Assembly: GCF_019039035.1 (NCBI RefSeq)
Contig: NZ_JAHNZT010000011.1
Location: forward strand, 1-64,000
Source: Citreicoccus inhibens
Lineage (GTDB): Bacteria; Myxococcota; Myxococcia; Myxococcales; Myxococcaceae
Length of the DNA stretch: 64,000 bases
Direction: 5' to 3'
Shown in pieces: positions 8,951 through 27,133 of the stretch. The position numbers and the translations under genes were made by a program. The stretch's first letter is position 1; each line of letters begins with the position of its first letter. The notes beneath the pieces were generated by a model, which did no database searches, was not told where the DNA came from, and saw only the letters and a program-made list of their open reading frames with translations.

Positions 8951-9058
8951 CCGGGGAGCGCGGGGTTCCTAGCTTCGAGCCCACGTGGGGGACGGGATAT
9001 AAGCCCCGTCGCCGCGAGCCCGGAGCTGGCCCGGCGTTGGAAAGGTGGATCGGCACAC

Positions 9059-10453
9059 ATGGCGTACAGGATGAACATGCCCCCGAAGGAGGGGCGCACC
9101 GCGGAGCGGCTGTTCGGCACCGACGGCGTGCGCGGCACGGCGAACGTCTACCCGATGACCGCCGAGGTCGCGATGCAGCTCGGTCGCGCGCTCGCGTATC
9201 TCATCCGCAATGGCCCGCACCGGCACCGCGTGCTCGTGGGCAAGGACACGCGGCTGTCGGGCTACATGCTGGAGCAGGCCCTGGCCGCGGGCATCATCTC
9301 CATGGGCGTGGACGTGGAGCTCGTGGGGCCGCTGCCGACGCCAGGCATCTCCAACCTCACCACGTCCATGCGCGCGGACGCCGGCGCGGTCATCTCCGCG
9401 TCCCACAATCCGTACCAGGACAACGGCATCAAGTTCTTCTGGCGCGATGGCTTCAAGCTGCCGGACGAGACAGAGGCGAAGATCGAGGAGCTGCTGTCGA
9501 GCGGCGCCATCGACTCCATCCGCCCCACCGCCACGAAGATTGGCCGGGCGTTCCGCATGGAGGACGCGCGCGGGCGCTACATCGTCTACCTGAAGGCCAC
9601 GTTCCCTCGCGAGCTGACGCTGGAGGGGCTGACCATCGTGGTGGACTGCGCGAACGGCGCGGCGTACCGCACGGCGCCCCTGGTGCTCGAGGAGCTGGGC
9701 GCCAAGGTGATTGCCATTGGCGTGCAGCCGGACGGCAAGAACATCAACCACAAGTGTGGCGCGCTCTATCCGGAGAACCTGGCGCGCGCGGTGGTGAAGC
9801 ACGGCGCCCACCTGGGCATCGCGCTGGACGGCGACGCGGACCGCCTCATCGTCGTGGATGAGAAGGGAAAGGTCGTGGACGGCGACGCCATCATGGCCAT
9901 CTGCACCGGCGAGCTGGTGGCGCGCAAGGAGCTGAAGAAGAAGACGCTCGTGGCCACGGTGATGAGCAACATCGGCCTGGAGCGCGCGGTGTCGCAGTGG
10001 GGCGTGAAGGTCGCGCGCACCCGCGTGGGTGACCGCAACGTCGTCGAGGAGATGCGCCGCAACGGCTACAACCTGGGCGGCGAGCAGAGCGGCCACCTCA
10101 TCTTCCTGGACCACACCACCACGGGCGACGGCACCCTCGCGGCGCTACAGCTCCTGGCGGTGATGTGCCGCCAGGGCAAGCCCTTGAGCGAGCTGGCCTC
10201 CATCTTCGAGCCGGTGCCCCAGACGCTGCTCAACGTCGTGGTGAAGCAGAAGCGCGAGCTGGGGGAGCTGCCCGAGGTGATGAAGGTCATCAAGAGCGTG
10301 GAGCAGCGGCTGGGCAAGTCCGGCCGCGTGCTGGTGCGCTTCTCCGGCACCGAGCCCAAGGCCCGCGTGCTCATCGAGGGCGAGGACGCGGCGCGCAATC
10401 AGGCCTTCGCCAAGGAGATTGGCGACGCGCTGGCCAAGGCCCTCAGCCGGTAG
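9059..10453 (+). CDS. glmM: Phosphoglucosamine mutase
   Basis: This 464-residue enzyme converts glucosamine-6-phosphate to glucosamine-1-phosphate on the way to UDP-GlcNAc, the precursor of peptidoglycan and LPS. Landmarks in order are '[18 protein letters not shown]', the active-site serine loop '[17 protein letters not shown]' (phosphoserine near residue 115), the metal-binding loop 'ALDGDADR', the sugar-binding 'GGEQSGH' and the phosphate-binding '[15 protein letters not shown]'. The frame is open further upstream, but ATG 9059 has GGAAAGGTGG at suitable distance and gives the usual N-terminus apart from about 15 extra residues. In-frame ATGs at 9071 and 9077 are alternatives. Confidence 0.95.
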
Positions 10454-10467
10454 GGGCCTCTGCTGGG

Positions 10468-10496
10468 TTGACTTCCGGACGCCGGCCCTCAATAGA
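10468..10496 (+). promoter_or_regulatory. Possible sigma70-type promoter for pdxJ-acpS-nnr-tsaE
   Basis: TTGACT (10468-10473) is followed after exactly 17 bases by AATAGA (10491-10496). It sits 15 bp after the glmM stop and 64 bp before the pdxJ start. Confidence 0.45.
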
Positions 10497-10505
10497 AGGG
10501 CCGGC
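10481..10505 (+). terminator. Hairpin after glmM, overlapping the pdxJ promoter
   Basis: The arms GCCGGCCCT (10481-10489) and AGGGCCGGC (10497-10505) pair perfectly around a seven-base loop. No T-tract follows. It may end glmM transcription or act as an operator, because it covers the -10 region of the candidate pdxJ promoter. Confidence 0.45.
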
Positions 10506-10559
10506 ACGGCCCGGGCCCGCTGAGAATCCCGAGGCCGCCCGCAAAGCGAGGAGCGGTCG

Positions 10560-11285
10560 ATGGGACAGCGACTGGGTGTCAACGTGGATCATGTGGCGAC
10601 GCTGCGGCAGGCGCGTCGCACCCCTTATCCGGATCCGGTGACGGCGGCCGCGCTGGCGGAGTTGGCCGGCGCGCGGCAGATCACCATCCACCTGCGCGAG
10701 GACCGGCGTCATATCCAGGATCGTGATCTGCGCATCCTGCGCGACACGGTGCAGACGCTGCTCAACCTGGAGATGGCGGCCACCGCGGAGATGGTGAAGA
10801 TCGCCTACGAGTACAAGCCGGACGTGGTGACGCTCGTGCCCGAGCGCCGCGAGGAGCTCACCACGGAGGGCGGGCTCGAGGTGGCGGGTCAGCGCGAGCA
10901 GATCGCGAAGATCATCAAGAACCTCAAGGACGGCGAGATTTCCGTCTCGCTGTTCATCGATCCGGACCTGGACCAGGTGCGCGCGGCGCACAAGGTGAAC
11001 GCGGACCGCATCGAGCTGCACACCGGGCGGTACTGCGAGGCGCGCAACGAGCGGGAGCGGGCGCGGGAGCTGGCGCGCATCGTGGATGCGGCGAAGGCGG
11101 CGGCGAAGCTCGGCATGGGCGTGGCGGCGGGGCACGGCCTCAACTACGACAACGTGCAGCCCATCGCGCGCATCCAGGAGATCGACGAGCTGAACATCGG
11201 CCATGGCATCGTCGCGCGCGCCGTGCTCGTGGGCTTCGAGCGCGCGGTGCGCGAGATGCTCGAGCTGATGCGCGACGCGGGATAG
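10560..11285 (+). CDS. pdxJ: Pyridoxine 5'-phosphate synthase
   Basis: This 241-residue TIM-barrel enzyme condenses 1-deoxyxylulose 5-phosphate with 3-amino-2-oxopropyl phosphate to make pyridoxine 5'-phosphate (DXP-dependent B6 route). It begins '[17 protein letters not shown]', the family N-terminus with the catalytic His. It also has '[15 protein letters not shown]', '[16 protein letters not shown]', 'IELHTGRYC' and '[12 protein letters not shown]'. Length is normal. It is followed after 4 bp by acpS, the same pdxJ-acpS order seen in E. coli, and is the first gene of a four-gene unit. Confidence 0.96.
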
Positions 11286-11289
11286 CGCC

Positions 11290-11670
11290 ATGTCCATCAT
11301 CGGCCTGGGCCTGGACATCTGCTCCATCGAGCGCATCCAGCGCATCATCACCGGGCCCCGGGCGGAGGCGTTCCTCGCGCGCGTGTTCACGGATGGCGAG
11401 CGGGCCACCTGCTCGCCGCGCCACGACGCGGCGAGTGCCTACGCGGCGCGCTTCGCGGCCAAGGAGGCGCTCGTGAAGGCCCTGGGCGCACCCAAGGGGA
11501 TCCGCTGGCGGGACATGGAGGTCGTGCGCGAGGACGGGCCGCCCCGCTTCGCGCTCGCTGGCGTGGCTCGCGAGGTGATGGAGGCGCGAGGGTTGGAGGC
11601 CTTCCTCGCGCTCACCCATGACGCTGGCGTGGCCGCCGCCACGGTGGTGCTTCAGACGAAGGGGGTGTGA
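11290..11670 (+). CDS. acpS: Holo-[acyl-carrier-protein] synthase
   Basis: This 126-residue enzyme transfers 4'-phosphopantetheine from CoA to apo-ACP, activating fatty-acid and possibly polyketide carriers. The N-terminal 'IIGLGLDICSIERIQRI' contains the Mg-binding Asp, and 'FAAKEALVKALGAPKGIRW' contains the second metal Glu and CoA-binding Lys. Size and motif spacing are standard for the trimeric AcpS type. It starts 4 bp after pdxJ and ends 3 bp before nnr, so co-translation is likely. Confidence 0.95.
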   Translation: MSIIGLGLDICSIERIQRIITGPRAEAFLARVFTDGERATCSPRHDAASAYAARFAAKEALVKALGAPKGIRWRDMEVVREDGPPRFALAGVAREVMEARGLEAFLALTHDAGVAAATVVLQTKGV

Positions 11671-11673
11671 GCC

Positions 11674-13206
11674 ATGCTGCGAGTCCTCACCGCCGAGCAG
11701 ATGCGTCAGGCCGAACAGGCCGCCGAGCAGCACCACGGCATGCCCTCGGGTCTCCTCATGGAGAACGCGGGCCGAGGGCTCGCGGAGGTGGTTCGCGAGC
11801 TACTCGCTCCCACGGGGCGCGCGGTGGTGGTGTGCGGTCCGGGCAACAATGGTGGGGATGGGCTGGTCGCGGCCCGCTTCCTTCGGGCGAGTGGGGCGCA
11901 AGTCCTGGTCGCGCGGGTGGGTGACGTCGCGAAGCTCACGCCCGAGGCGCGACGCAACCTCGAGGCGCTCCGGGGCTTCGGCGTGGAGCCGACCTTGTTG
12001 GACACGATGCCCGCGCTGCGAACGGGCGATGTGGCCGTGGATGCGCTGTTCGGCACGGGCCTCAGCCGCGCGCCGGGTGGCGCGTTCGCCGCGGCCATCG
12101 AGGTGCTGGCGCGGTGGCGTCAGGCGGGCGCGACGGTCGTGGCGGCGGATGTGCCCTCGGGGCTGCGCAGCGACACGGGCGAGGCGTTCTCGCCGTGTGT
12201 CGAGGCGGACGTGACGGTGACGTTTGGCTTCCTCAAGCCGGGCCAGCTCTTCGAGCCTGGCGCGGCGCGATGTGGCGACGTGCGGCGCGTGGACATCGGG
12301 ATGGGCAGCGCGGTGGCCCAGTCGGTGTCCGGTCCCGAGCTGCTGTGGCTGGAAGAGTCCGATGCTCGCGAGTCCTTGCCCGTGCGCCGGGCGGACACGC
12401 ACAAGGGCACCTATGGCCACGTGCTCGTGGTGGCGGGGAGCCCCGGCAAGACGGGGGCCGCGGCGATGGTGGCCCTGGCGGCGCTGCGCAGCGGGGCGGG
12501 GCTCGTCACGGTGGCTACGCGTCCCTCCGCGTTGGGGCATGTGCTCGCGCACGCACCGGAGATCATGGGTGAGGCGCTGGAGGCCGAGGGGCCGTTGGGG
12601 CTCGGAGACCTGGACGCGCTGCTGGCCGCCGCCGAGGGCAAGGACGCGCTCGTGATGGGGCCAGGGATTGCCCGGGGGCCTCAAACGGCGGCCTTGATTG
12701 GCGAGTTGCTGTCGCGCGTGGAGGTGCCCGTTGTCCTCGATGCGGACGCGCTCAATGCCGTAGCCGAGGACCTCTCCGTGCTGCGGCGCGCTCGCGGTCC
12801 GGTGGTCCTCACGCCACATCCGGGAGAGATGTCGCGCTTGCTGAAGCAGTCGACTCGCGAGGTCCAGGAGCACCGCTTGGATGTGGCACATCGGCTGGCT
12901 GCTTCATCGGGCGCGACGGTGGTGCTCAAGGGCTCGCGGACGCTCATCGCCGAGCCCGGGGGCCGCGTGTTCATGAACCCCACGGGCAACCCGGGCATGT
13001 CCACGGGGGGCTCAGGCGATGTCCTGTCAGGTGTCTGCGGGGCGCTGCTGGGGCAGGGGCTGCCTGTGTCGAGCGGGGTGTGCACCGCCGTGTACGCGCA
13101 CGGGTTGGCGGGGGACCTCGTGGCGGCGCGGCGCGGGCAGCTCGGGCTCATCGCCACGGACTTGCTCAAGGGACTCTGTGAGGTCTGGGTGAGGTGGGGA
13201 CGATGA
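11674..13206 (+). CDS. nnr: Bifunctional NAD(P)HX epimerase/dehydratase
   Basis: This 510-residue repair enzyme reverses hydration damage to NADH and NADPH. The N-terminal YjeF/NnrE epimerase domain (about 1-215) has 'MLRVLTAEQMRQAE', 'CGPGNNGGDGLVAARFL' and 'VDALFGTG'. The C-terminal ADP-dependent dehydratase domain (about 230-505) has 'HKGTYGHVLVVAGSPG', 'LVMGPGI', 'VLTPHPGEMSRL' and the nucleotide-binding 'GTGGSGDVLSG'-type loop written here as 'STGGSGDVLSGV'. Its stop overlaps the tsaE start by three bases (ATGA). The nnr-tsaE pairing is widely conserved in bacteria. Confidence 0.95.
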   Translation: MLRVLTAEQMRQAEQAAEQHHGMPSGLLMENAGRGLAEVVRELLAPTGRAVVVCGPGNNGGDGLVAARFLRASGAQVLVARVGDVAKLTPEARRNLEALRGFGVEPTLLDTMPALRTGDVAVDALFGTGLSRAPGGAFAAAIEVLARWRQAGATVVAADVPSGLRSDTGEAFSPCVEADVTVTFGFLKPGQLFEPGAARCGDVRRVDIGMGSAVAQSVSGPELLWLEESDARESLPVRRADTHKGTYGHVLVVAGSPGKTGAAAMVALAALRSGAGLVTVATRPSALGHVLAHAPEIMGEALEAEGPLGLGDLDALLAAAEGKDALVMGPGIARGPQTAALIGELLSRVEVPVVLDADALNAVAEDLSVLRRARGPVVLTPHPGEMSRLLKQSTREVQEHRLDVAHRLAASSGATVVLKGSRTLIAEPGGRVFMNPTGNPGMSTGGSGDVLSGVCGALLGQGLPVSSGVCTAVYAHGLAGDLVAARRGQLGLIATDLLKGLCEVWVRWGR

Positions 13207-16630: not shown

Positions 16631-18286
16631 TCAGAGCGTGATGCCGGGGATCTTCACGCCGCGCTCCTTGGCGACGTCGACCGCCTCGGTGTAACCCGCG
16701 TCCGCGTGGCGCAGCACGCCCATGGCGGGATCCGAGGTGAGCACGCGCTCGATGCGCCGCGCGGCCTCGGGCGTGCCGTCCGCGACGATGACCTGACCGG
16801 CGTGGAGCGAGTAGCCCATGCCGACGCCGCCGCCGTGGTGGAACGACACCCAGGACGCGCCGTTCACGGCGTTGACCAGGGCGTTGAGGATGGGCCAGTC
16901 CGCCACCGCGTCCGTGCCGTCCTTCATGGCCTCCGTCTCGCGGTTGGGCGACGCCACCGAGCCGCAGTCGAGGTGATCGCGCCCGATGACGATGGGCGCC
17001 TTCACCTCGCCCTTGCGCACCAGCTCGTTGAACGCGAGGCCCGCCTTGGCGCGCTCGCCGTAGCCCAGCCAGCAGATGCGCGCGGGCAGACCCTGGAACG
17101 CGATGCGATCCTGCGCCATGTCCAGCCAGCGCTTGAGCGAGGCCTTGTGCGGGAACAGCTCCAGCACGGCGCGGTCGGTGCGGCGGATGTCCTCGGGGTC
17201 TCCGGACAGGGCCACCCAGCGGAAGGGCCCCATGCCCTCGCAGAACAGCGGGCGGATGTAGGCGGGCACGAAGCCGGGGAACTCGAACGCGTCCGTCATT
17301 CCGCCGAGCTGCGCCTGTCCGCGCAGGTTGTTGCCGTAGTCGAAGACGAAGCTGCCGGCGCGCTGGAAGTCGTTCATCGCGTCCACGTGCATCATCATGG
17401 ACTCGCGCGCGCGTCGGACGTACTCCTGCGGATCTCGCTGGCGCAGCTCGTGCGCGGCCTCCAGCGACAGGTCCGTGGGGATGTAGCCGTTGAGCGGATC
17501 ATGCGCGCTCGTCTGATCCGTCACGAGGTCGGGCTTGATTCCGCGGCGGTACAGCTCTCGGAACACCGACGCCGCGTTGCCAATGATGCCGATGGACTTG
17601 CCCACGCGCCGCTGCATCGCGTCCTTGGCCAGCGCGAGCGCCTCGTCGAGGTCCTTGGCGACGACGTCCAGGTAGCGCGTCTCCACGCGGCGGCGGGCGC
17701 GCGTGGGGTCGATCTCCACGCCGAGGAACACGGCGTTGTTCATGGTGGCGGCCAGCGGCTGCGCGCCGCCCATGCCCCCCAGACCTCCGGAGAGGATGAG
17801 GCGGCCGGCCAGGTCATCGGTGCCGAAGTGGTGGCGACCGGCGGCGGCGAAGGTCTCGTAGGTGCCCTGCAGGATGCCCTGCGTGCCGATGTAGATCCAC
17901 GAGCCGGCCGTCATCTGGCCGTACATCATCAGGCCCTTCTTCTCCAACTCGTGGAAGTGCTCCCAGTTGGCCCAGCGGCCCACGAGGTTCGAGTTGGCGA
18001 TGAGCACGCGGGGCGCATCCGGGTGGGTGCGCAGCACGCCCACGGGCTTGCCGGACTGCACGAGCAGCGTCTCGTCGTCGGTGAGGTTCTGGAGGCTGGA
18101 GACGATGCGGTCGAACGACGGCCAGTCGCGCGCGGCCTTGCCCGTGCCGCCGTAGACGACGAGATCCTCGGGGCGCTCGGCCACGTCGGGATCGAGGTTG
18201 TTCATCAACATCCGGAGCGCGGCCTCCTGGACCCAGCCCTTGCAGGACAGGGTGGAGCCACGGGGGGCGCGGATGACGCGGGACAT
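16631..18286 (-). CDS. hutU: Urocanate hydratase
   Basis: This 551-residue NAD+-dependent cytoplasmic enzyme converts urocanate to imidazolone-5-propionate, the second step of histidine breakdown. It shows '[18 protein letters not shown]', '[15 protein letters not shown]', '[11 protein letters not shown]', '[11 protein letters not shown]', '[11 protein letters not shown]' (NAD-binding) and '[15 protein letters not shown]' with the active-site Cys. It also has '[12 protein letters not shown]' near the end. Full typical length. The start ATG has AGGAG at seven-base spacing. It is the first gene of the hut unit. Confidence 0.96.
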
Positions 18287-18387
18287 GCGAAGACTCCTGG
18301 AGCCGGGGGCTCGGACAAGTCGAGGGCCGGCACACTACCCGAAGCCCTCCAGGGCGGGGGTGTCTCTTGCTCCACGACGCGGTGGGA

Positions 18388-18415
18388 GCCCGCGCCACTG
18401 AATCGTGACGCGGGC
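18388..18415. terminator. Hairpin between BON gene and hutU
   Basis: A perfect GCCCGCG/CGCGGGC stem with a 14-base loop lies 28 bp past the stop of the BON-domain gene, on its downstream side. No T-tract is present, so this is a weak terminator candidate. It could also lie in the hutU upstream control region. Confidence 0.3.
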
Positions 18416-18443
18416 GGACATGGACCGGTGGTCCCAGGGGACC

Positions 18444-19466
18444 TCAGCTCGACGGACGGTGGGCGTCCTCCGGGGCCGGGGGCGGGGTGGGCTCCGAGGC
18501 GTGGTCGGCCTGGTGGATCCGCAGGTGGTTGTGGATGTCCTTCACCCCCAGCTCCCCGTCGGCCACATCCTCGATGGCGCGCTTCTCGTCACGGCTGCTC
18601 ACCGTGCCGCGCAGGGTGACCTCGCCGGCCTCGACGTGGACGTCCACTTCGCTGGCGTCCATCCACTCGCGCATCAGGCGTTCGCAGATCTCCTCGCGGA
18701 TCCTCGAGTCCGAGCGCGTGTAGCTCCGAGGCCCGCGCCCCGCGGGTCGCGGCACATGGCCTCGCCCCAGGTAGCCGCCGTGCCCCAACTCGTGGTCCTG
18801 CGGGCGCGAGGGGCTGGTCCAGTAGCCCATCTGCGGAGGCGCCATGTTCTCGCGGCCGGGGCCGTGGGGGCCGGGCTCGGTGCCGCCATATCGAACGTCT
18901 TGCTCCGGGAGCGGAGCCCCCCCTCGAGCGCGGCGCGGTGGTCCTCTTCGATGGCGGCCCGGGGGCGGCTCGGGGGGGAGCTCGTGGAAGGAGCCGCTCG
19001 GGCTGAAGCCGGGGCGGCGGAGGCTCTGCTCGGGCTCGAACTCGCGCGCGCGGCGATCCCTCTCGCGGTAGGGGTCGAAGTGGCGCGGCGGTGGACGCGC
19101 GCGGTCCAGGTCCTGCGCGGCGACGTGGAAGTCCTGGTCCAGGTCGAACTCGCGCGTGTCGTGATCGCGGGCCAGATACCGCTCGTCGCGGTCCCAGGCG
19201 AAGTCCCGGGACTCGCCCTGGCGATCCGGATCCGAGTCCCAGTCCCCCGCGTGGACCCGCCGGTCCCGGGCCTCGTCCCGGGCGTCGTCCAGGTAGTGCG
19301 CCGCGTCGCGGTGGGCCCGGCCCAGGAGCGGAGACTCATGGGCGAGGGGGTCGCCCGCTCGGGCTGCCTCCCACCCGCCGGACAGCCCCTCCCCGGGCCG
19401 CTCGTGCTTGCGCCCCTTGGGGCCATGGCCTCGTTTGCGCTTGCCGTCGTGGTGCCTGCCGCTCAT
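18444..19466 (-). CDS. BON-domain protein with charged low-complexity region
   Basis: This is a 340-residue protein. Residues 1-25 are basic (KRKRGHGPKGRKHE). Residues 45-130 are dominated by Asp, Arg and aromatic residues ('DWDSDPDRQGESRDFAWDRD'). A Pro/Arg/Gly-rich linker follows. One BON domain lies near the C-terminus: 'REEICERLMREWMDASEVDV', 'VTLRGTVSSRDEKRAIEDVA', 'VKDIHNHL'. BON domains usually bind phospholipid membranes or mediate interactions, often in the periplasm (OsmY), but this protein has no signal peptide. The start at 19466 has GAGGAGG at ideal distance. Several other starts upstream in the open frame lack this. Function unknown. Confidence 0.75.
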   Translation of the reverse strand: MSGRHHDGKRKRGHGPKGRKHERPGEGLSGGWEAARAGDPLAHESPLLGRAHRDAAHYLDDARDEARDRRVHAGDWDSDPDRQGESRDFAWDRDERYLARDHDTREFDLDQDFHVAAQDLDRARPPPRHFDPYRERDRRAREFEPEQSLRRPGFSPSGSFHELPPEPPPGRHRRGPPRRARGGAPLPEQDVRYGGTEPGPHGPGRENMAPPQMGYWTSPSRPQDHELGHGGYLGRGHVPRPAGRGPRSYTRSDSRIREEICERLMREWMDASEVDVHVEAGEVTLRGTVSSRDEKRAIEDVADGELGVKDIHNHLRIHQADHASEPTPPPAPEDAHRPSS

Positions 19467-19674
19467 CGCGCCGCCTCCTCGGGGTGCCGTGCGCTGTCGC
19501 ACTCCGCTCCAAGACGTTCGTGCCGATGGGAGGTGACGGCAACGTGGGGTGGGTGGGGGGAGACGGAGGAAGGACCATCCTCGGGCGTCACCTCGCGCCT
19601 CGGGCGCGGTAGGATTGCGCCCGCCCGGGCGGCGGCGGAACGGTCGCGCGCACGGGTTTCTGGGAGGGCGGTTC

Positions 19675-22062
19675 ATGGCGGACGTGCAGCAGATGGAGGG
19701 ACAGACTCGGCCCGCGCCGGCTCCCGGGGCCGTGCTGGCGCCCGTGCTGCCGAGCGCCCAGCCTCCCGAGGAGACCCATCCGCCTGACGTGCGCCCGGTG
19801 GAGACCGTGGCCGGCGGCATGACCGCGGTGGTCACGGCCATGCGCCACGTGTTCAGCGAGGCCGGCCCGGTGCGCGGCACCCAGCTGCTGCTCCAGGTGA
19901 ACCAGGAGCACGGCTTCGACTGCCCGGGCTGCGCGTGGCCGGACCCCAAGGCGCACCGCTCCGTGGCGGAGTTCTGCGAGAACGGCGCGAAGGCGGTCGC
20001 GGAAGAGGGGACGCGCGCGCGCGTGACGCCCGAGTTCTTTGCGAACTGGAGCGTGGCGGAGCTGTCGCACCAGTCGGACCTGTGGCTGGGCAAGGCCGGT
20101 CGGCTCACGCACCCCATGGTGCTGCGCGAGGGCGCCACGCACTACGCGCCCATCTCCTGGGACGAGGCCTTCGCGTTGGTCGCCGAGGAACTCAACGCGC
20201 TGGGCTCACCCGACGAGGCGTGCTTCTACACGTCAGGGCGCACGAGCAACGAGGCCGCGTTCCTCTACCAGCTCTTCGTGCGGCAGTACGGAACGAACAA
20301 CCTGCCGGACTGCTCGAACATGTGCCACGAGTCCAGTGGCCGGGCGCTCACGGAGACGGTGGGCATTGGCAAGGGCACCGTCACGCTGGAGGACTTCGAG
20401 CAGGCGCAGGCCATCTTCGTCGTGGGGCAGAACCCCGGTACCAATCACCCGCGCATGCTCTCCGCGCTCCAGGCCGCCGCGCGGCGCGGGTGTGAGATCG
20501 TCAGCATCAACCCGCTCCCCGAGACCGGCCTCAACCGCTTCAAGCACCCGCAGGAGGTGCTGCGGCTCCTCGGGCCGGGCACGGCCATCAACACGCTGTT
20601 CCTCCAGGTGCGCATCAACGGCGACGTGGCGCTCTTCCAGGGACTGGCCAAGGCCCTGTTCGAGATGGAGGACGCGCGGCCGGGGTCGGTGGTGGCGCGC
20701 GGCTTCATCGACGAGAAGACGCTCGGCTTCGAGGCGTACGCCGACCACGCGCGCGCGGTTTCTTGGGATGACGTGGTCGAGCAGAGCGGCGTGCCGCGCG
20801 ATCAGATTGTCGCCGCAGCGGAGATCCTCGCGCGCTCCGAGCGAGCCATCTGGTGCTGGGCCATGGGCCTCACGCAGCACCGCAACGCGGTGGCCAACAT
20901 CCAGGAGATCGTCAACCTGGCGCTCCTGCGGGGCGGCGTGGGCAAGCCGGGCGCGGGCCTGTGTCCGGTGCGCGGCCACAGCAACGTGCAGGGCGATCGC
21001 ACCATGGGCATCTGGGAGCATCCCAAGCCCGAGTTCCTGGATGCCCTGGCGCGGGAGTTCCAGTTCGAGCCGCCGCGCCACTCGGGGCTCGACACCGTGG
21101 CCACGCTGCACGGGATGCTCGCGGGGCAGGTGAGGGTGTTCTTCGCGCTCGGCGGCAACTTCCTGTCCGCCTCGCCCGACACCGAGCGGACCGCTGAGGC
21201 CCTGCGGCGCACGCGCCTCACGGTGCATGTGTCCACCAAGCTCAATCGCGCGCACCTCGTGCACGGCCGGCGCGCGCTCATCCTTCCGTGCCTGGGCCGC
21301 ACCGAGCGGGACGTCCAGGTGGCCGGTGCGCAGTTCGTCACCGTCGAGAACTCCATGGGCATCGTGCACGCGTCGCGCGGCGCGGTGCCTCCCGCGTCGG
21401 AGCACCTGCTGAGCGAGCCCGCGCTGGTGGCGAGGCTGGCCCAGGCGGTGCTCGGTGCTCGCTCGAGGGTGGCGTGGACGTGGCTGGTGGAGGACTACGA
21501 CCGCGTGCGCGACCTCATCTCGCGCTGCATCCCGGGGTTCACGTCCTTCAACACGCGCGTACGCGAGCCGGGGGGCTTCGCCCTGCCGAACGGGCCGCGT
21601 GAGGGGCGCTTCACCACCGCCAGCGGCAAGGCGCACTTCACGGTGCATGAGATGCCGCGGCTGCGCCTGGAGCCCGGTCAGCTCCTCATGATGACGCTGC
21701 GCACGCATGACCAGTACAACACGACCATCTACGGCCTGGATGACCGCTACCGAGGCATCCGAGACGGGCGGCGCGTGGTGTTGCTGCACCCCGGGGACGT
21801 GAAGGACCTGGGGTTCGAAGCGGGCCAGTGGGTGGACCTGACGAGCCACTTCCAGGGCGAGACACGCGTGGCGCGCCGGTTCGTGGTGGTGCCGTACAAC
21901 ATCCCCCGGCGCTGCGCCGCCACCTACTTTCCCGAGGCCAACGTTCTGGTGCCGCTCGACAGCTTTGCGGAGAAGAGCCGCACCCCCACGTCGAAGTCCG
22001 TGGTCATCACCCTGTCGCCGAGCGTGGATGCCCCCGCGCTGGTCGCGGGCGTGAGCCCTTGA
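19675..22062 (+). CDS. FdhF/YdeP-family molybdopterin oxidoreductase
   Basis: This is a 795-residue enzyme of the molybdopterin oxidoreductase superfamily, closest by motif to the YdeP branch. The N-terminus has the YdeP-type 'FDCPGCAWPDPKAHRSVAEF' plus 'CENGAKAVAEEGTR'. It continues with 'SWDEAFALVAEEL', 'TSGRTSNEAAFLYQLFVRQY', 'NMCHESSG', 'FVVGQNPGTNHPRML', 'RGHSNVQGDRTMGI' and a molydopterin dinucleotide-binding C-terminal domain ('LMMTLRTHDQYNTTIYGLDD'). There is no four-cysteine ferredoxin-like motif as in classical formate dehydrogenases. The physiological reaction of this branch is uncertain; E. coli YdeP is linked to acid resistance. Start ATG 19675 follows GGGAGGG. The unknown 22090 gene follows after 27 bp. 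Confidence 0.88.
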   Translation: MADVQQMEGQTRPAPAPGAVLAPVLPSAQPPEETHPPDVRPVETVAGGMTAVVTAMRHVFSEAGPVRGTQLLLQVNQEHGFDCPGCAWPDPKAHRSVAEFCENGAKAVAEEGTRARVTPEFFANWSVAELSHQSDLWLGKAGRLTHPMVLREGATHYAPISWDEAFALVAEELNALGSPDEACFYTSGRTSNEAAFLYQLFVRQYGTNNLPDCSNMCHESSGRALTETVGIGKGTVTLEDFEQAQAIFVVGQNPGTNHPRMLSALQAAARRGCEIVSINPLPETGLNRFKHPQEVLRLLGPGTAINTLFLQVRINGDVALFQGLAKALFEMEDARPGSVVARGFIDEKTLGFEAYADHARAVSWDDVVEQSGVPRDQIVAAAEILARSERAIWCWAMGLTQHRNAVANIQEIVNLALLRGGVGKPGAGLCPVRGHSNVQGDRTMGIWEHPKPEFLDALAREFQFEPPRHSGLDTVATLHGMLAGQVRVFFALGGNFLSASPDTERTAEALRRTRLTVHVSTKLNRAHLVHGRRALILPCLGRTERDVQVAGAQFVTVENSMGIVHASRGAVPPASEHLLSEPALVARLAQAVLGARSRVAWTWLVEDYDRVRDLISRCIPGFTSFNTRVREPGGFALPNGPREGRFTTASGKAHFTVHEMPRLRLEPGQLLMMTLRTHDQYNTTIYGLDDRYRGIRDGRRVVLLHPGDVKDLGFEAGQWVDLTSHFQGETRVARRFVVVPYNIPRRCAATYFPEANVLVPLDSFAEKSRTPTSKSVVITLSPSVDAPALVAGVSP

Positions 22063-22089
22063 GGCACGGGGTGATGCATCCGAGGTCCC

Positions 22090-24339
22090 ATGTCGTCGTT
22101 CGTTGAGAGCGGGTGGCCGGAGTCGATCCGGTCCCTCTATGAGCAGGTCGCCCAGGTCTCGCCCGCGGAAGCCGTGGACGCGAGCGCCGGTTGGCGAGAG
22201 ACGTTCGCGCAATGGGTGCGCGGCGCGTCGCTGGAGGAGCGCACCCAGGCGCAGGCCGCCGCGTGGGCTCGGCTGTCTCCGGGCGAGCGGACGTCCGGGG
22301 AGCTGTTGTTCCTCGTGTCCACGTGCAGCGAGCTGCTGTGGCCCTACGCCGAGCCTCCCGCGGGACTGCTGCGGCAGCTCCTCGCGCGGCAGGCCGAGGC
22401 GGTCCACGCGCTCATCGCCGCGGGAGACGGCGGTGGAGCGTTGCGCGTGCGGCGCGAGACGGACGCGTCCATGTCCACCGTGCTCACGCGTTATCTGCGG
22501 CGACATCCGGAGTCCTTGCTCGCGCTCGTCGAAGGTGTGCCGTGTACGTTCGATGGTCGAGCGCTGCGCTTCCAGGACGTGGTGGAGGTGGACCTCAAGC
22601 AGGTGCTCGGGACGGGCGTGAAGTCCGTGGGTCTGCTGGAGCAGCTGCGCACGCTGTTGCCAGACACGCGTGAGGAGGGACGGGATCGGCTGGCGGACTT
22701 CATCCGGACTCGCGCGGCGCGCATCCCGTGGGCCGAGGCCAGTGAAGTGCTGGGCGAGCGACTGTTCGCGCTGGCCATGTCGCCCGAGGGCCGCAGCGGC
22801 ATGCGTGGCTTCCTCGCGTGCTATCCGAACGGTCGCAAGGAGCCGGACTGGTGCTCGCGCGCGGGCATGCTGTTGGCGCGCACGGTAGAGGTGGGTGGGC
22901 CGCAGGCGGTGGTGGAGAACCTGTGCGAGCTGCTGACGCTGTTCGACTCCTCTCCGGTGGATGGACTCCGAGGGGCGTTGGGGGCGCTCGTGCAGAGCGA
23001 CCTGGAGGCCGCGGCGGATCTCCATCACGCGCGCTTCGTGTTGGATCACTGTCAGGCCACGCTGCGCAAGAACGAGCCGGGCCTGGCCCTCACCATCCTG
23101 TGGCTGGAGGAGCGCCTGTTCCGCGCGGCCGTGCGGCGCGGGGTTCCGGAGGCGTTCGAGCGCCGGGGCCGCGCGCGGGCTCGCATGGAGAAGCTGCCCG
23201 GCTTCGTCCACCTGTCTTGGTTGGCGGACGAGTGCGCGGAGCTGTGGCCTCGCTTCCGCGCCGGCGCGCGCCCAGGCCTCGATGAGCTGGCGGCGTGGCG
23301 GCAGCAGGTGGCGGTGCGCATGGGCCGCAAGCCGGTGCTGCGCAAGGCGGCCATCGAGTTCTTCCTGTGGTGTGCCCCGGATGAGGCGTCGTCCGAGGCG
23401 GAGCTGACGGTGCTGGGGCTGGCGCGCACCGCGACGGATCGACGTCTGGTGCGGCGCTTCCTGGAGCATCCGTCGCCTCGCGCTCGCTTCCGTGCGCTGG
23501 CGCTCCAGAACTGGTTCCAGGGTGGCGTGGGGAAGGGGACGAAGCCCCTCGCGCCGACGGAGCCCGCGACTCCGGCCACGCTCACGGAGGCCTTGCGCCA
23601 TCTGCACGCGACGCGCGCCGTGCCGATGGGGGGCCGCACGTGGTTGCGGGATCGCGACCTGGAGGAGCTGCTCCTCGGCGCGGTGGGCCGCGTGGAGTCC
23701 GAGTTCGCGCTGCGCTACGCGGAGCGCTTCCGCGAGCCGCCCGAGGAGTTGGTGGCCCACCTGCTGTCCGGCATTCAGGAGGAGTTCGCGCGGATCCGCG
23801 CGGACGTGTCGTCCCTGCTCGCGAATGGTCAGCCCGTGCCGGTGGAGCTGGGCTTCACCGTGCGGCGCAAGGCCCCCGTGCCCGAGCAGGAGCACGACAG
23901 CGTGGAGCTTGCCTTCGTCGTCACCGCCGAGATGGCGGGGATGGTGCGCACGCGCCGCGTCGCACGCATGCAGGTGGCGCGGCTGGAGCAACGGGGCGAG
24001 GGCCAGTGGCTGCCCACGTTCCGGCTCGCGCGCGAGCGTGTGGACGCGCTCCTGGCGCGCACGGAGTCCGCTTTCTGCCTGTTGCTGGTGCCCGCGTTCG
24101 TGCGACCTGAGTGCTGGGTGGTCCCCGCGAAGTTGGCGCGCGGCGTGATGGAGGCGCAGGGCTCACTGACGGGCTTGCCTCGCGAGCCGGCGCAGCGGGT
24201 GGCGAGAGGGCTCGCGCCGTGGCTCATCTACGACCTGCTGGGCCTGTGGACGGGAGACGAGCGACCGCAGGCGATGGATGAAGCCACGGTGGAGGAGGGC
24301 GGCCCTGACTTCCTGGTTGAGCTGAACCTCCGGGGCTGA
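22090..24339 (+). CDS. Unrecognised 749-residue protein
   Basis: I recognise no named family. Residues 1-480 look all-helical, with many Leu/Ala-Arg/Glu helices in repeated pairs, like a HEAT/TPR-type solenoid. From about 590 to 700 the pattern changes to strands and helices: 'VELAFVVTAEMAG', 'VARMQVARLEQRG', 'CLLLVPAF', 'ECWVVPAKLARGVMEAQ'. This order (acidic strand, a QxK-like strand where Lys is replaced, then a Pro-Ala strand) faintly recalls PD-(D/E)XK nuclease-fold domains. That is only a resemblance. No signal peptide or membrane segment. It is sandwiched between the molybdoenzyme (27 bp) and the FHA-sigma54 regulator (23 bp), so all three may be one transcript. Confidence 0.78.
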   Translation: MSSFVESGWPESIRSLYEQVAQVSPAEAVDASAGWRETFAQWVRGASLEERTQAQAAAWARLSPGERTSGELLFLVSTCSELLWPYAEPPAGLLRQLLARQAEAVHALIAAGDGGGALRVRRETDASMSTVLTRYLRRHPESLLALVEGVPCTFDGRALRFQDVVEVDLKQVLGTGVKSVGLLEQLRTLLPDTREEGRDRLADFIRTRAARIPWAEASEVLGERLFALAMSPEGRSGMRGFLACYPNGRKEPDWCSRAGMLLARTVEVGGPQAVVENLCELLTLFDSSPVDGLRGALGALVQSDLEAAADLHHARFVLDHCQATLRKNEPGLALTILWLEERLFRAAVRRGVPEAFERRGRARARMEKLPGFVHLSWLADECAELWPRFRAGARPGLDELAAWRQQVAVRMGRKPVLRKAAIEFFLWCAPDEASSEAELTVLGLARTATDRRLVRRFLEHPSPRARFRALALQNWFQGGVGKGTKPLAPTEPATPATLTEALRHLHATRAVPMGGRTWLRDRDLEELLLGAVGRVESEFALRYAERFREPPEELVAHLLSGIQEEFARIRADVSSLLANGQPVPVELGFTVRRKAPVPEQEHDSVELAFVVTAEMAGMVRTRRVARMQVARLEQRGEGQWLPTFRLARERVDALLARTESAFCLLLVPAFVRPECWVVPAKLARGVMEAQGSLTGLPREPAQRVARGLAPWLIYDLLGLWTGDERPQAMDEATVEEGGPDFLVELNLRG

Positions 24340-24362
24340 AGCGGTGCTAGCGTAGCGGGGAC

Positions 24363-25745
24363 ATGACTCCCCCCGAGCGGCCCTCTGGTTCCGCGCGCCC
24401 TGCCTCCAGCTCCGAGGATCCGCAGCAGACGTTGCCTGTCGGGACCCGGCGACCCGGCGCCACCGGCGCGGTCCGGCGCTTCCGGTTCACGGTGCTGGAG
24501 GGCCCGGAGCCAGGGTTCTTCCGCGAGTCCAGCGCGGACACGTACTCGCTGGGCTCACACGCCCTCAATGACCTGGTCATCGAGGAGCCCACTGTGTCGC
24601 GCTTCCACTGCGAGGTGAAGGTGGATCGCGATGGGGCTCGGGTGCGCGACCTGGACAGCCGCAACGGCACCATCCTGGACGGCGTGCACGTGCGCGAAGC
24701 GTTCCTGCGCGGCGGCAGCGTGCTGCGCCTGGGGCGCGTCAGCGTCCGCTTCGACTTCAGCCCCGAGAGCAACCGCCTGCTCATCTCCGAGCGCCCCGTG
24801 TTTGGGGACCTGGTGGGCACGTCCGTGGTCGCGCGGGTGAGCTTCGCCCTCATGGAGCGCGCCGCCGCGAGCGACGCCACGGTGCTTCTGGAGGGCGAGA
24901 CGGGCACGGGCAAGAGCCGCGCGGCCTTGGCCATCCATCGCGCCAGCGCGCGCGCCGCGGGGCCGTTCCTCACGCTGGACTGTGGCGCCATTCCCGCGAA
25001 CCTGCTGGAGAGCGAGCTGTTCGGTCACGAGAAGGGCGCCTTCACGGGGGCCCTGCAACGCCGCGTGGGTGCGTTCGAGGAGGCCGATGGGGGCACCATC
25101 TTCCTCGACGAGATTGGAGAGCTGCCCGCGGAGCTTCAGCCCAAGCTGTTGCGGGTGCTGGAGGAGGGGGAGATTCGTCGGCTGGGCTCGAACACGTATC
25201 AGCCGGTCAACGTGCGCGTCATCGCGGCCACGAACCGGGACCTGCGCGCCGAGGTGAACGGGGGGCGCTTCCGCTCGGACCTGTTCTTCCGGCTCGCGGT
25301 GGTGCGCATCCTCATCCCGTCGCTGCGAGAGAGACCCGAGGACATCGCGCTCATCACCGAGCGCATCCTGGCATCATTGGGCGCGACGCCCGCGCAGGTG
25401 GAGTCGCTGTCCGCCCCGGACTTCGTCGCGCAGCTCCAGCGCGCCGCGTGGCCCGGCAACGTGCGTGAGCTGCGCAATCACCTGGAGCGCTGTCTGGTGT
25501 TCCAGGACGCCATGCCGCCATCGTCCGAGGACGTGGGCGCCGCGCCAGGAGTCGCGCCGACGGCGATCGATCCCAAGCTGCCCTACGCGGAAGCACGCCG
25601 CCGGGCCCTGGAGTCCTTCGAGCGCGAGTACCTGGATGGGCTCCTCGCGCTGCACCAGGGCAAGGTGGCGGTAGCGGCGGCGGCGGCGGACATGGACCGG
25701 GTGTACCTCTACCGGCTCCTGCGTCGGCACGGCCTCAAGGTGTAG
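24363..25745 (+). CDS. FHA-domain sigma54-dependent transcriptional activator
   Basis: This is a 460-residue enhancer-binding protein. The N-terminal FHA domain (about 36-130) has '[20 protein letters not shown]' and '[10 protein letters not shown]', which bind phosphothreonine. The central AAA+ domain has Walker A GETGTGKS (178-185), an intact sigma54-contacting GAFTGA loop (225-230) and '[12 protein letters not shown]'. The C-terminal 40 residues form a Fis-type HTH ('[14 protein letters not shown]'). The FHA input means it is controlled by a Ser/Thr kinase rather than a His kinase, an arrangement common in myxobacteria. Two such kinases lie at 34.9-40 kb. The RND operon starts 116 bp downstream and could be a target. 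Confidence 0.93.
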
Positions 25746-25802
25746 CGCCGGTTGTGCGTGGCCGCGGTCGGTGTGTTCACCGCCGCGCAAGCAACCCCGC
25801 CC

Positions 25803-25817
25803 TGGTGTCTGACTTGT
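25803..25817 (+). promoter_or_regulatory. Weak sigma54-like element before the RND operon
   Basis: TGGTGTCTGACTTGT has GG and TTG at -24/-12 spacing, but the -12 doublet is GT instead of GC. It lies 45-59 bp before the adaptor start and directly after the sigma54 activator gene, which is the main reason to note it. A CCCCC/GGGGG hairpin follows at 25831-25846. Confidence 0.22.
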
Positions 25818-25861
25818 CCACGCGTGGCGTCCCCCTACCTTGGGGGCTCTGTCATGCGCGC

Positions 25862-27133
25862 ATGAATCCGCCGCCACCCGAGCCCGAGCCGTCTGGTCCA
25901 TCCTTGCGCGAGAAGCCGCGGCGCCGTCTCTGGCAGTGGTGGCTCGTCGGCCTCGGTGGCGTCGTCGTCGTGGGCGTCCTGCTCGCGCGTCGTCATGAGG
26001 CCAGCTCCGCCGCGAAAGCGGCGGGCGCGCGTGACACCGGGAAGCCGCAGCCAGTGGTGTCGGCCGTGGCGCGCACGCGTGATGTCCCCGTGCACCTCGC
26101 GGGGCTGGGTGCCGTCACGCCCACCAGCACCGTCACCGTCCGGACGCGCGTGGACGGACAGCTCATGCGCGTCGCCTTTCGAGAAGGGCAGCTCGTCAAA
26201 GAGGGCCAGCTGCTGGCCGAGATTGATCCGCGCCCTTTTCAGGTCCAGCTCGAACAGGCGCTCGGGCAGCTGCGCCGGGACGAGGCGTTGCTCGCGAACG
26301 CGCGGGTAGACCTCCGGCGCTACACCACGCTGTTCAGCCAGGACTCCGTCTCCCAACAGACGCTTCAGACGCAGAGAGCGCTGGTGCATCAGTACGAGGG
26401 CAACGTGAAGGCGGACCAAGGCACGGTCGCGTCGGCCCGCTTGAACCTCACCTATGCCCGCGTCACCTCGCCGGTCAGTGGGCGAGTGGGGCTGCGGCTG
26501 GTGGACCCCGGCAACATCGTCCACGCAGCCGACGCGAACGGTCTGGTGGTGGTCAACACCGAGCAGCCCATCGCGGTGATCTTCTCCGTGCCCGAGGACC
26601 GGGTGCCGGAGCTCCTCTCCCGACTGGCCACGGGGCAGACGCTGGCGGTCCGCGCGTTCGATCGCACCGGGACGAAGCTGCTCGCGAACGGGACGCTCCT
26701 CACGGTCGACAATCAGATTGACCCGACGACGGGGACCGTCCGGCTGAAGGCGACCTTCCCCAACTCGGACTTCGCGCTGTTTCCGCAGCAGTTCGTCAAC
26801 GCGTGGTTGATGATCGACACCCTGCGCGGCGCGACCGTGGTCCCCACCGCGGCCATTCAGCATGGCGTGAACGGGGCGTTTGTCTACCGCGTTCAATCGA
26901 ACGACACCGTCCAGGTGGTGCCGGTGAAGACGGGGCCCTCGGATGGGGATGACACGGTCGCGTCCACCGGACTCCAGCCCGGAGACCTCGTGGTGGTCGA
27001 GGGCGCGGACAAGCTCACGAATGGCGCGCCCGTGAAGCTCCAGTCGCGCGAGCCCGGGCCCGCCGTGGGAGGCAGCGGCCGAGATGGAGGCCAGGAGGAG
27101 CCCGCCGGCGTCGCGCCGGATGGCGGTCGGTGA
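25862..27133 (+). CDS. RND efflux periplasmic adaptor (MdtA-like)
   Basis: This 423-residue membrane-fusion protein links inner-membrane RND pumps to an outer-membrane channel. A membrane anchor lies near residues 25-43 ('WWLVGLGGVVVVGVLLA'). It is followed by the lipoyl and coiled-coil regions ('VTVRTRVDGQLMRVAFREGQ', 'LLAEIDPRPFQVQLEQALGQ') and beta-barrel segments ('ARVTSPVSGRVGLRLVDPGN'). Composition and order match MdtA. The start ATG 25862 gives a Pro-rich cytoplasmic head; the frame is open 36 codons further upstream. The stop abuts the first RND pump start with no gap. Confidence 0.9.
   Translation: MNPPPPEPEPSGPSLREKPRRRLWQWWLVGLGGVVVVGVLLARRHEASSAAKAAGARDTGKPQPVVSAVARTRDVPVHLAGLGAVTPTSTVTVRTRVDGQLMRVAFREGQLVKEGQLLAEIDPRPFQVQLEQALGQLRRDEALLANARVDLRRYTTLFSQDSVSQQTLQTQRALVHQYEGNVKADQGTVASARLNLTYARVTSPVSGRVGLRLVDPGNIVHAADANGLVVVNTEQPIAVIFSVPEDRVPELLSRLATGQTLAVRAFDRTGTKLLANGTLLTVDNQIDPTTGTVRLKATFPNSDFALFPQQFVNAWLMIDTLRGATVVPTAAIQHGVNGAFVYRVQSNDTVQVVPVKTGPSDGDDTVASTGLQPGDLVVVEGADKLTNGAPVKLQSREPGPAVGGSGRDGGQEEPAGVAPDGGR

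Follow-up and report, generated by a model that had tools for sequence, protein, structure and literature searches.

What does a 749-residue protein without a family name do between a molybdoenzyme gene and the gene of an FHA-sigma54 regulator, and does the nuclease-like fold glimpsed in its C-terminal part still cut? The question is raised by an open reading frame in a 64,000-nucleotide stretch of Citreicoccus inhibens DNA (the window), whose product we call P. The answer that we prefer, and to which we give an even chance of being right, is that P is a soluble, lineage-specific and probably non-catalytic scaffold or adaptor, in which a solenoid is joined to a PD-(D/E)XK-fold domain that binds and does not cut.

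P is a real gene, found in one lineage

The reading frame lies at 22090..24339 on the + strand and has the predicted length of 749 codons for amino acids. Its ATG at 22090 is the sole ATG, GTG or TTG in the open frame before about codon 20, and the GC contents at its three codon positions are 0.75, 0.51 and 0.89. Comparison with the orthologue of a congener (G001, 94% identity) gave a dN of 0.031 and a dS of 0.320, the differences at codon positions 1, 2 and 3 numbering 43, 17 and 146. Hence, with coding-type GC, one plausible ATG start and purifying selection against the congener, P is a real gene.

The description of P as unrecognised in the original prediction still applies. Pfam, NCBIfam and PADLOC returned 0 families for P at E <= 1, and the best PHROGs match was only about E 0.03 (all at E 0.032 or above). 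Pfam scans of all 24 rows of alignment A1 and all 13 rows of alignment A2 gave one stray weak match each, in a single member. Sequence searches of the PDB reached E 0.33 with P itself, and 0.15 and 1.9 with two profiles.

Orthologues were present in 26 genomes from 7 of 46 genera in a search of 98 relatives. A profile search of the phylum found them in 60 of 195 genomes (7 of 90 genera), and all matches listed fell in the window's own family (f1). When a profile of the C-terminal domain was run over 193 phylum genomes, 60 genomes matched at E < 1e-60 and the next best reached only E 0.017. Coverage beyond the phylum came from scanning 84,980 genomes, one for each species, with two peptide patterns; both of these lie outside the C-terminal domain, such that distant relatives of that domain could escape the scan. 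The scan returned 24 loci, and 23 of these are titled Corallococcus, Myxococcus, Pyxidicoccus, Archangium or Myxococcaceae MAG. As far as was searched, the sequence comparisons indicate that the P family is special to the Myxococcaceae in the wide sense.

The 24th locus (L060, BNCN01000007.1) is titled 'Comamonas sp. KCTC 72670'. Its genes run urocanase - molybdoenzyme - P - FHA, as they do in Myxococcus, and the record seems to be mislabelled.

The N-terminal region is predicted to be solenoid-like

A whole-protein AlphaFold2 model built with 24 sequences (mean pLDDT 72, pTM 0.54) predicts residues 10-478 (22117..23523, + strand) to be alpha-helical and alpha-solenoid-like, with most 10-residue blocks at pLDDT 75-95 up to residue 470. 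There follows a low-confidence hinge at residues 479-521 (23524..23652, + strand), pLDDT being under 50 at 479-527, and the model fails at residues 632-722, where pLDDT is again under 50.

Foldseek and VIA rows for the helical region were solenoids such as importin, AP2 and the PP2A scaffold, all of them weak; the best VIA Z was 8.6 against the figure of about 13 that the tool asks of helical models, and the TM-scores were 0.08-0.18 by query length, matches of a kind common among helical models. As modelled, P has stacked helices like those of the HEAT/ARM-type alpha-solenoids (importin, AP2 alpha, PP2A scaffold), but differs from them in the low TM-scores and in having no Pfam HEAT/ARM match, the repeat signature being absent in the window's P and a scan of 24 orthologues yielding one unrelated weak match. 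PomY is a Myxococcus protein reported to have HEAT repeats. As modelled, the N-terminal two thirds of P would form an alpha-solenoid offering a binding surface.

The modelled C-terminal domain resembles the PD-(D/E)XK fold

Residues 495-749 were folded separately with 54 sequences from a shallow alignment (Neff 1.9), which gave a model with pLDDT 84 and pTM 0.83; the five models of this single run span pLDDT 69 to 84. Helices are predicted at 522-546, 551-577, 648-657 and 680-689, followed by three more, and strands at 586-593, 605-615, 619-636, 639-645, 661-666 and 676-679, with a last one at 741-748. A helical N-terminal part and a strand-helix C-terminal part had been anticipated, and both are borne out by the models. 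The PD-(D/E)XK core is given in a passage of one source as alpha-beta-beta-beta-alpha-beta (PMC9635880). The modelled domain, residues 551-748 (23740..24333, + strand), has its elements in this order (551-577, 586-593, 605-615, 619-636, 648-657, 661-666) and carries an extra strand at 639-645.

In a VIA-align comparison with 994 chains, Rep15 took ranks 1-3 (Z 7.2-7.6) and RecU, Hjc and the virus nuclease D212 took ranks 4-10 (Z 6.5-6.8), followed by I-Ssp6803I, Hje, SPARDA chains, NaeI, NhoI, Eco15I and PvuII, the last of these rows being rank 28 with Z 3.5. Every one of the 27 rows that exceed Z 3.5 is Rep15 or a nuclease of the PD-(D/E)XK class. The first protein of another kind stands at rank 29 with Z 3.5, about 3 Z units below the top. 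These scores are to be read with the tool's warning that unrelated structures, too, typically reach a Z of 7 to 8, and that a Z under 8 may reflect no more than a common arrangement. Foldseek against the PDB placed RecU (three rows) and Rep15 (five rows) at ranks 1-8, with a best E of 0.056 and no row at E <= 0.001. In the viral structure library BFVD, RecU was at rank 1 and phage RecU was among the weak top rows, none at E <= 0.001.

The RecU / PrfA Holliday junction resolvases (2fco, 1zp7, 5fdk, 1rzn, 1y1o) have the same core order of helices and strands as the model of P and align with its C-terminal domain over 130-135 residues at 3.6-3.9 A (VIA Z 6.5-6.8), the best Foldseek row being one of theirs. 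They differ in sequence, at 5-9% identity, and P is without their (D/E)xK and carries a solenoid. Archaeal Hjc (2wcw; VIA Z 6.8, 113 residues, 3.3 A) differs in belonging to an active resolvase family. The top VIA row was human Rep15, an effector of Rab15/Rab3 (8a4c; Z 7.6, 158 residues, 3.9 A), which at 8% identity is eukaryotic and has no solenoid in the 8a4c chain.

These relations were not recovered by sequence. P never matched RecU, and RecU was not found in the window's genome; an Hjc model gave 0 matches in 58 genomes of the phylum and did not detect P. A profile-profile search with hhalign, in which the domain alignments were set against 11 myxobacterial DUF4365 sequences (profile comparison being confined to this one PD-(D/E)XK-type family), returned a probability of 0.2% and E 0.27-0.29, the only aligned stretch being the helix after the third strand. 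By eye DUF4365 (PF14280) has a P-like run of strand, helix and strand after its Q-x-K strand, but it keeps the Asp and the Q-x-K in 11/11 rows of alignment A4, whereas P does not. A direct BLASTP match of P to a DUF4365 protein (E 0.19) lay in a non-corresponding stretch and was rejected.

Since the profile test with this one family failed and Pfam gave no match, support for the fold comes from structure prediction and not from sequence. The match is favoured in spite of its low Z because one fold class fills the VIA list well above the rest, and we regard a PD-(D/E)XK-like fold of the C-terminal domain as supported at the level of the model. We think it quite unlikely that the likeness is an accident of a model from a shallow alignment and that the domain has some other alpha/beta fold. 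Such an accident would fit the Z below 8, the failed hhalign comparison and the region that failed in the whole-protein model, but it sits poorly with the lead of a single fold class over the first unrelated row and with the confident domain model. The fold search gave no confident match to an unrelated fold, the result by which the original prediction would have fallen.

The canonical catalytic motif is missing

We counted residues over the 48 sequences covering the columns of the C-terminal domain. Glu606 (23905..23907, + strand) is in the second strand, where strand order would put the catalytic Asp/Glu, and is E in 47/48. The third strand, where (D/E)xK is expected, has residues 628-633 (QVARLE; 23971..23988, + strand). 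Position 628 is Q in 22 sequences, P in 12, R in 7, L in 4 and H in 3, and position 630 is V in 17, A in 15 and R in 13, with T, G and M once each. Position 631 is K in 46 and R in two, namely the window's P and its congener; position 633 is E in 47 and V in one. No sequence (0/48) has (D/E)xK within residues 619-636. If strands 2 and 3 form a simple hairpin, in a register derived from the strand ends and not measured, 606 would face 628, and 628 and 630 would be the sites of the lost acid and lysine. The fold with altered catalytic residues that the original prediction had seen faintly is a point on which model, structure rows and column counts agree, although it is statistically soft (Z <= 7.6, Foldseek E 0.056).

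The missing (D/E)xK weakens the case for an active nuclease but leaves that for the fold as it was; inactive homologues still count as members of the PD-(D/E)XK superfamily (PMC9014873). The residues invariant in 48/48 include T621, R623, G636, W640, R648, D652, C663, P668, R672, E674, P679 and R684, a pattern that in the alignment suggests strong constraint other than on the canonical motif.

The near-invariant Glu606, Lys631 and Glu633 could instead be a displaced active site. P would then be an active nuclease with Glu606 on strand 2 and a K-x-E (Lys631/Glu633) on strand 3, and its solenoid would pick the substrate. The conservation of these three residues (47, 46 and 47 of 48), that of R648, D652, R672 and E674 in all 48 and the occurrence of the fold mostly in nucleases are in keeping with this. 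However, the canonical spacing and order are missing in every one of the 48, the simple hairpin register, as judged from the strand ends, would put 631 and 633 on the sheet face opposite 606, and Lys631 is replaced by Arg in both the window's P and the congener. We therefore consider an active nuclease unlikely.

On our preferred reading of P as a scaffold, the C-terminal third would have the modelled PD-(D/E)XK fold without the canonical acid-x-lysine, and because this motif is missing from the sequences the domain most likely serves to bind a partner, be it protein or nucleic acid, and leaves it uncut. Rep15 offers a precedent by analogy for the binding-only use of an Hjc-like fold, this Rab effector reportedly sharing its (super)fold with Hjc at 2.9 A over 108 residues (PMC9308819).

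The loop joining core strands 1 and 2 can expand

In some orthologues the C-terminal region also carries a large insertion, which marks it out as a unit. The loop linking its first strand to its second, residues 594-604 (23869..23901, + strand), has 11 residues here and up to 466 in orthologues, as estimated from linker lengths in 44 loci. The extra residues lie between 593 and 605 in orthologues from Myxococcus and Pyxidicoccus (g23). Most near relatives have 9 or 11 residues in this linker and several have 30-78, while six Myxococcus/Pyxidicoccus loci (L038, at 8987-12625, and L062-L066) have 207-466; the shortest estimate, 5 (L057), comes from a truncated alignment. The big linkers are rich in Ser, Pro and acidic residues by eye, and any label of 'disordered' refers to that composition and not to a calculation. 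Some Myxococcus tolerate linkers of hundreds of residues, and hence the domain, it would seem, can function without a compact loop.

The molybdoenzyme neighbour marks one clade

P starts 27 bases after the stop of one gene and ends 23 bases before the next. The upstream gene (19675..22062, + strand; start uncertain, the ORF opening at 19549) encodes an FdhF/YdeP-family molybdoenzyme, matching TIGR01701 at 938 bits against a cut-off of 582. The downstream gene (24363..25745, + strand) encodes an FHA-sigma54 activator with FHA (PF00498, E 1.3e-13) and Sigma54_activat (PF00158, E 9.3e-66) domains. The identity of both neighbours was correctly foreseen in the original prediction; the conservation of the trio across myxobacteria held in part.

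The synteny set comprised 44 loci, including at least six pairs in which a single contig appears twice. The molybdoenzyme gene is directly upstream of P in 31/31 loci of g1, Corallococcus and Myxococcus/Pyxidicoccus, with 14-189 bp between match ends, and from these gaps P is probably co-transcribed with the enzyme in the Myxococcus-Corallococcus clade. Among the 13 loci without it, two (L047 and L072) are the same 4.9-kb contig, which starts inside P and is unreadable on the upstream side; none of the other 11, which belong to g8 (Archangium), g12 and g16, has the enzyme directly upstream. Eight g8 and g12 loci (seven contigs) carry a gene for an acyltransferase (PF01553) immediately ahead of P, with one for an arylamine-type N-acetyltransferase (PF00797) in the vicinity, and the g16 loci have neither beside P. 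Of the 31 linked loci, just 17 have the FHA gene at most 400 bp after P; in 12 it is 1.3-7.3 kb away, and in two it was not seen.

In the unlinked clade, 6/6 genomes have a molybdoenzyme orthologue elsewhere. Constant co-occurrence or linkage was not found: among 17 genomes picked for contrast all 11 with P also carry the enzyme, in 6/11 far apart or on different contigs, and the enzyme occurs without P in 3/14 genomes (G009, G015, G052). A tree of 24 rows sets the molybdoenzyme-linked sequences apart from the rest by a branch with full support (100/100). The context of five rows (L013, L017, L022, L024, L026) was assigned by genus with the neighbourhood unread, and a clade of nine molybdoenzyme-linked rows, all of them read, is independent of these. 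Because the unlinked clade keeps P, its enzyme lies elsewhere and the branch is fully supported, the molybdoenzyme link is an event or loss within the P family and not a defining property.

P might still be an accessory protein of the FdhF/YdeP enzyme, acting in its maturation or targeting, whose gene moved apart in some lineages. We doubt this. The unbroken linkage at short distance in one clade and the presence of the enzyme in every P-bearing contrast genome are what such a role would lead one to expect, but not the separation of the genes in 6/11 or the three genomes with the enzyme and without P; moreover, the modelled fold of P does not appear to resemble that of molybdoenzyme chaperones. 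Since another clade keeps P in other surroundings, the core function of P as a scaffold would be independent of this neighbour. Stops in three molybdoenzyme matches were considered as selenocysteine codons, a reading ruled out by their position at the very C-terminal ends.

The original prediction had also proposed that P is a component under the FHA-sigma54 regulator and kinase signalling. The regulator gene is indeed 23 bases downstream here and close by in just over half of the linked loci, but it lies kilobases off or was not seen in the others, and the window's activator has a paralogue, at 67%, as similar to it as the best copies of the other clade. Sigma54-like sites were not above chance (15 found, 25 expected), and control of this kind, which found no support there, we judge very improbable. 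No sigma70-like site was found in 18200-26200.

The window's activator is one of several FHA activators, the paralogue mentioned above lying in the same genome at G000:C57:371235-372548. Several Myxococcus loci (L038, 12632-14053; also L059, L062-L064 and L066) have a beta-CASP metallo-beta-lactamase gene (PF10996, PF07521) on the opposite strand, which either separates P from the FHA gene or stands where no FHA gene was seen. A urocanase gene (PF01175 with its N- and C-terminal domains; 16631-18286, - strand) is divergent from the molybdoenzyme gene in the window and is beside it in most linked loci. An AcrB-type RND transporter gene (PF00873; 27134-30247 in the window) is downstream of the trio in the window's genus.

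Implications

Against the reading of P as a scaffold stand the Z values under 8, the shallow alignment, the single fold run, the hhalign probability of 0.2% and the weak solenoid matches, and for us they leave that reading evenly poised. A more specific version, which we offer tentatively, is that P represents a new family with a PD-(D/E)XK fold that gave up cutting, and that fusion to a solenoid and an expandable tether between core strands 1 and 2 made it an interaction scaffold, recruited beside a molybdoenzyme in one clade. Its partner might be a small GTPase, as in Rep15. Small GTPases are prominent in the polarity and motility of myxobacteria.

A fold guessed from raw sequence, with its catalytic residues judged altered, can thus survive modelling. 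If the scaffold reading is true, P would show something rare in bacteria, a nuclease fold that has become a module for binding and sits on a solenoid arm, and this module would have been kept for long in one group of social bacteria. It would also single out P as a definite candidate gene among bacteria in which scaffolds and polarity proteins have drawn much study.
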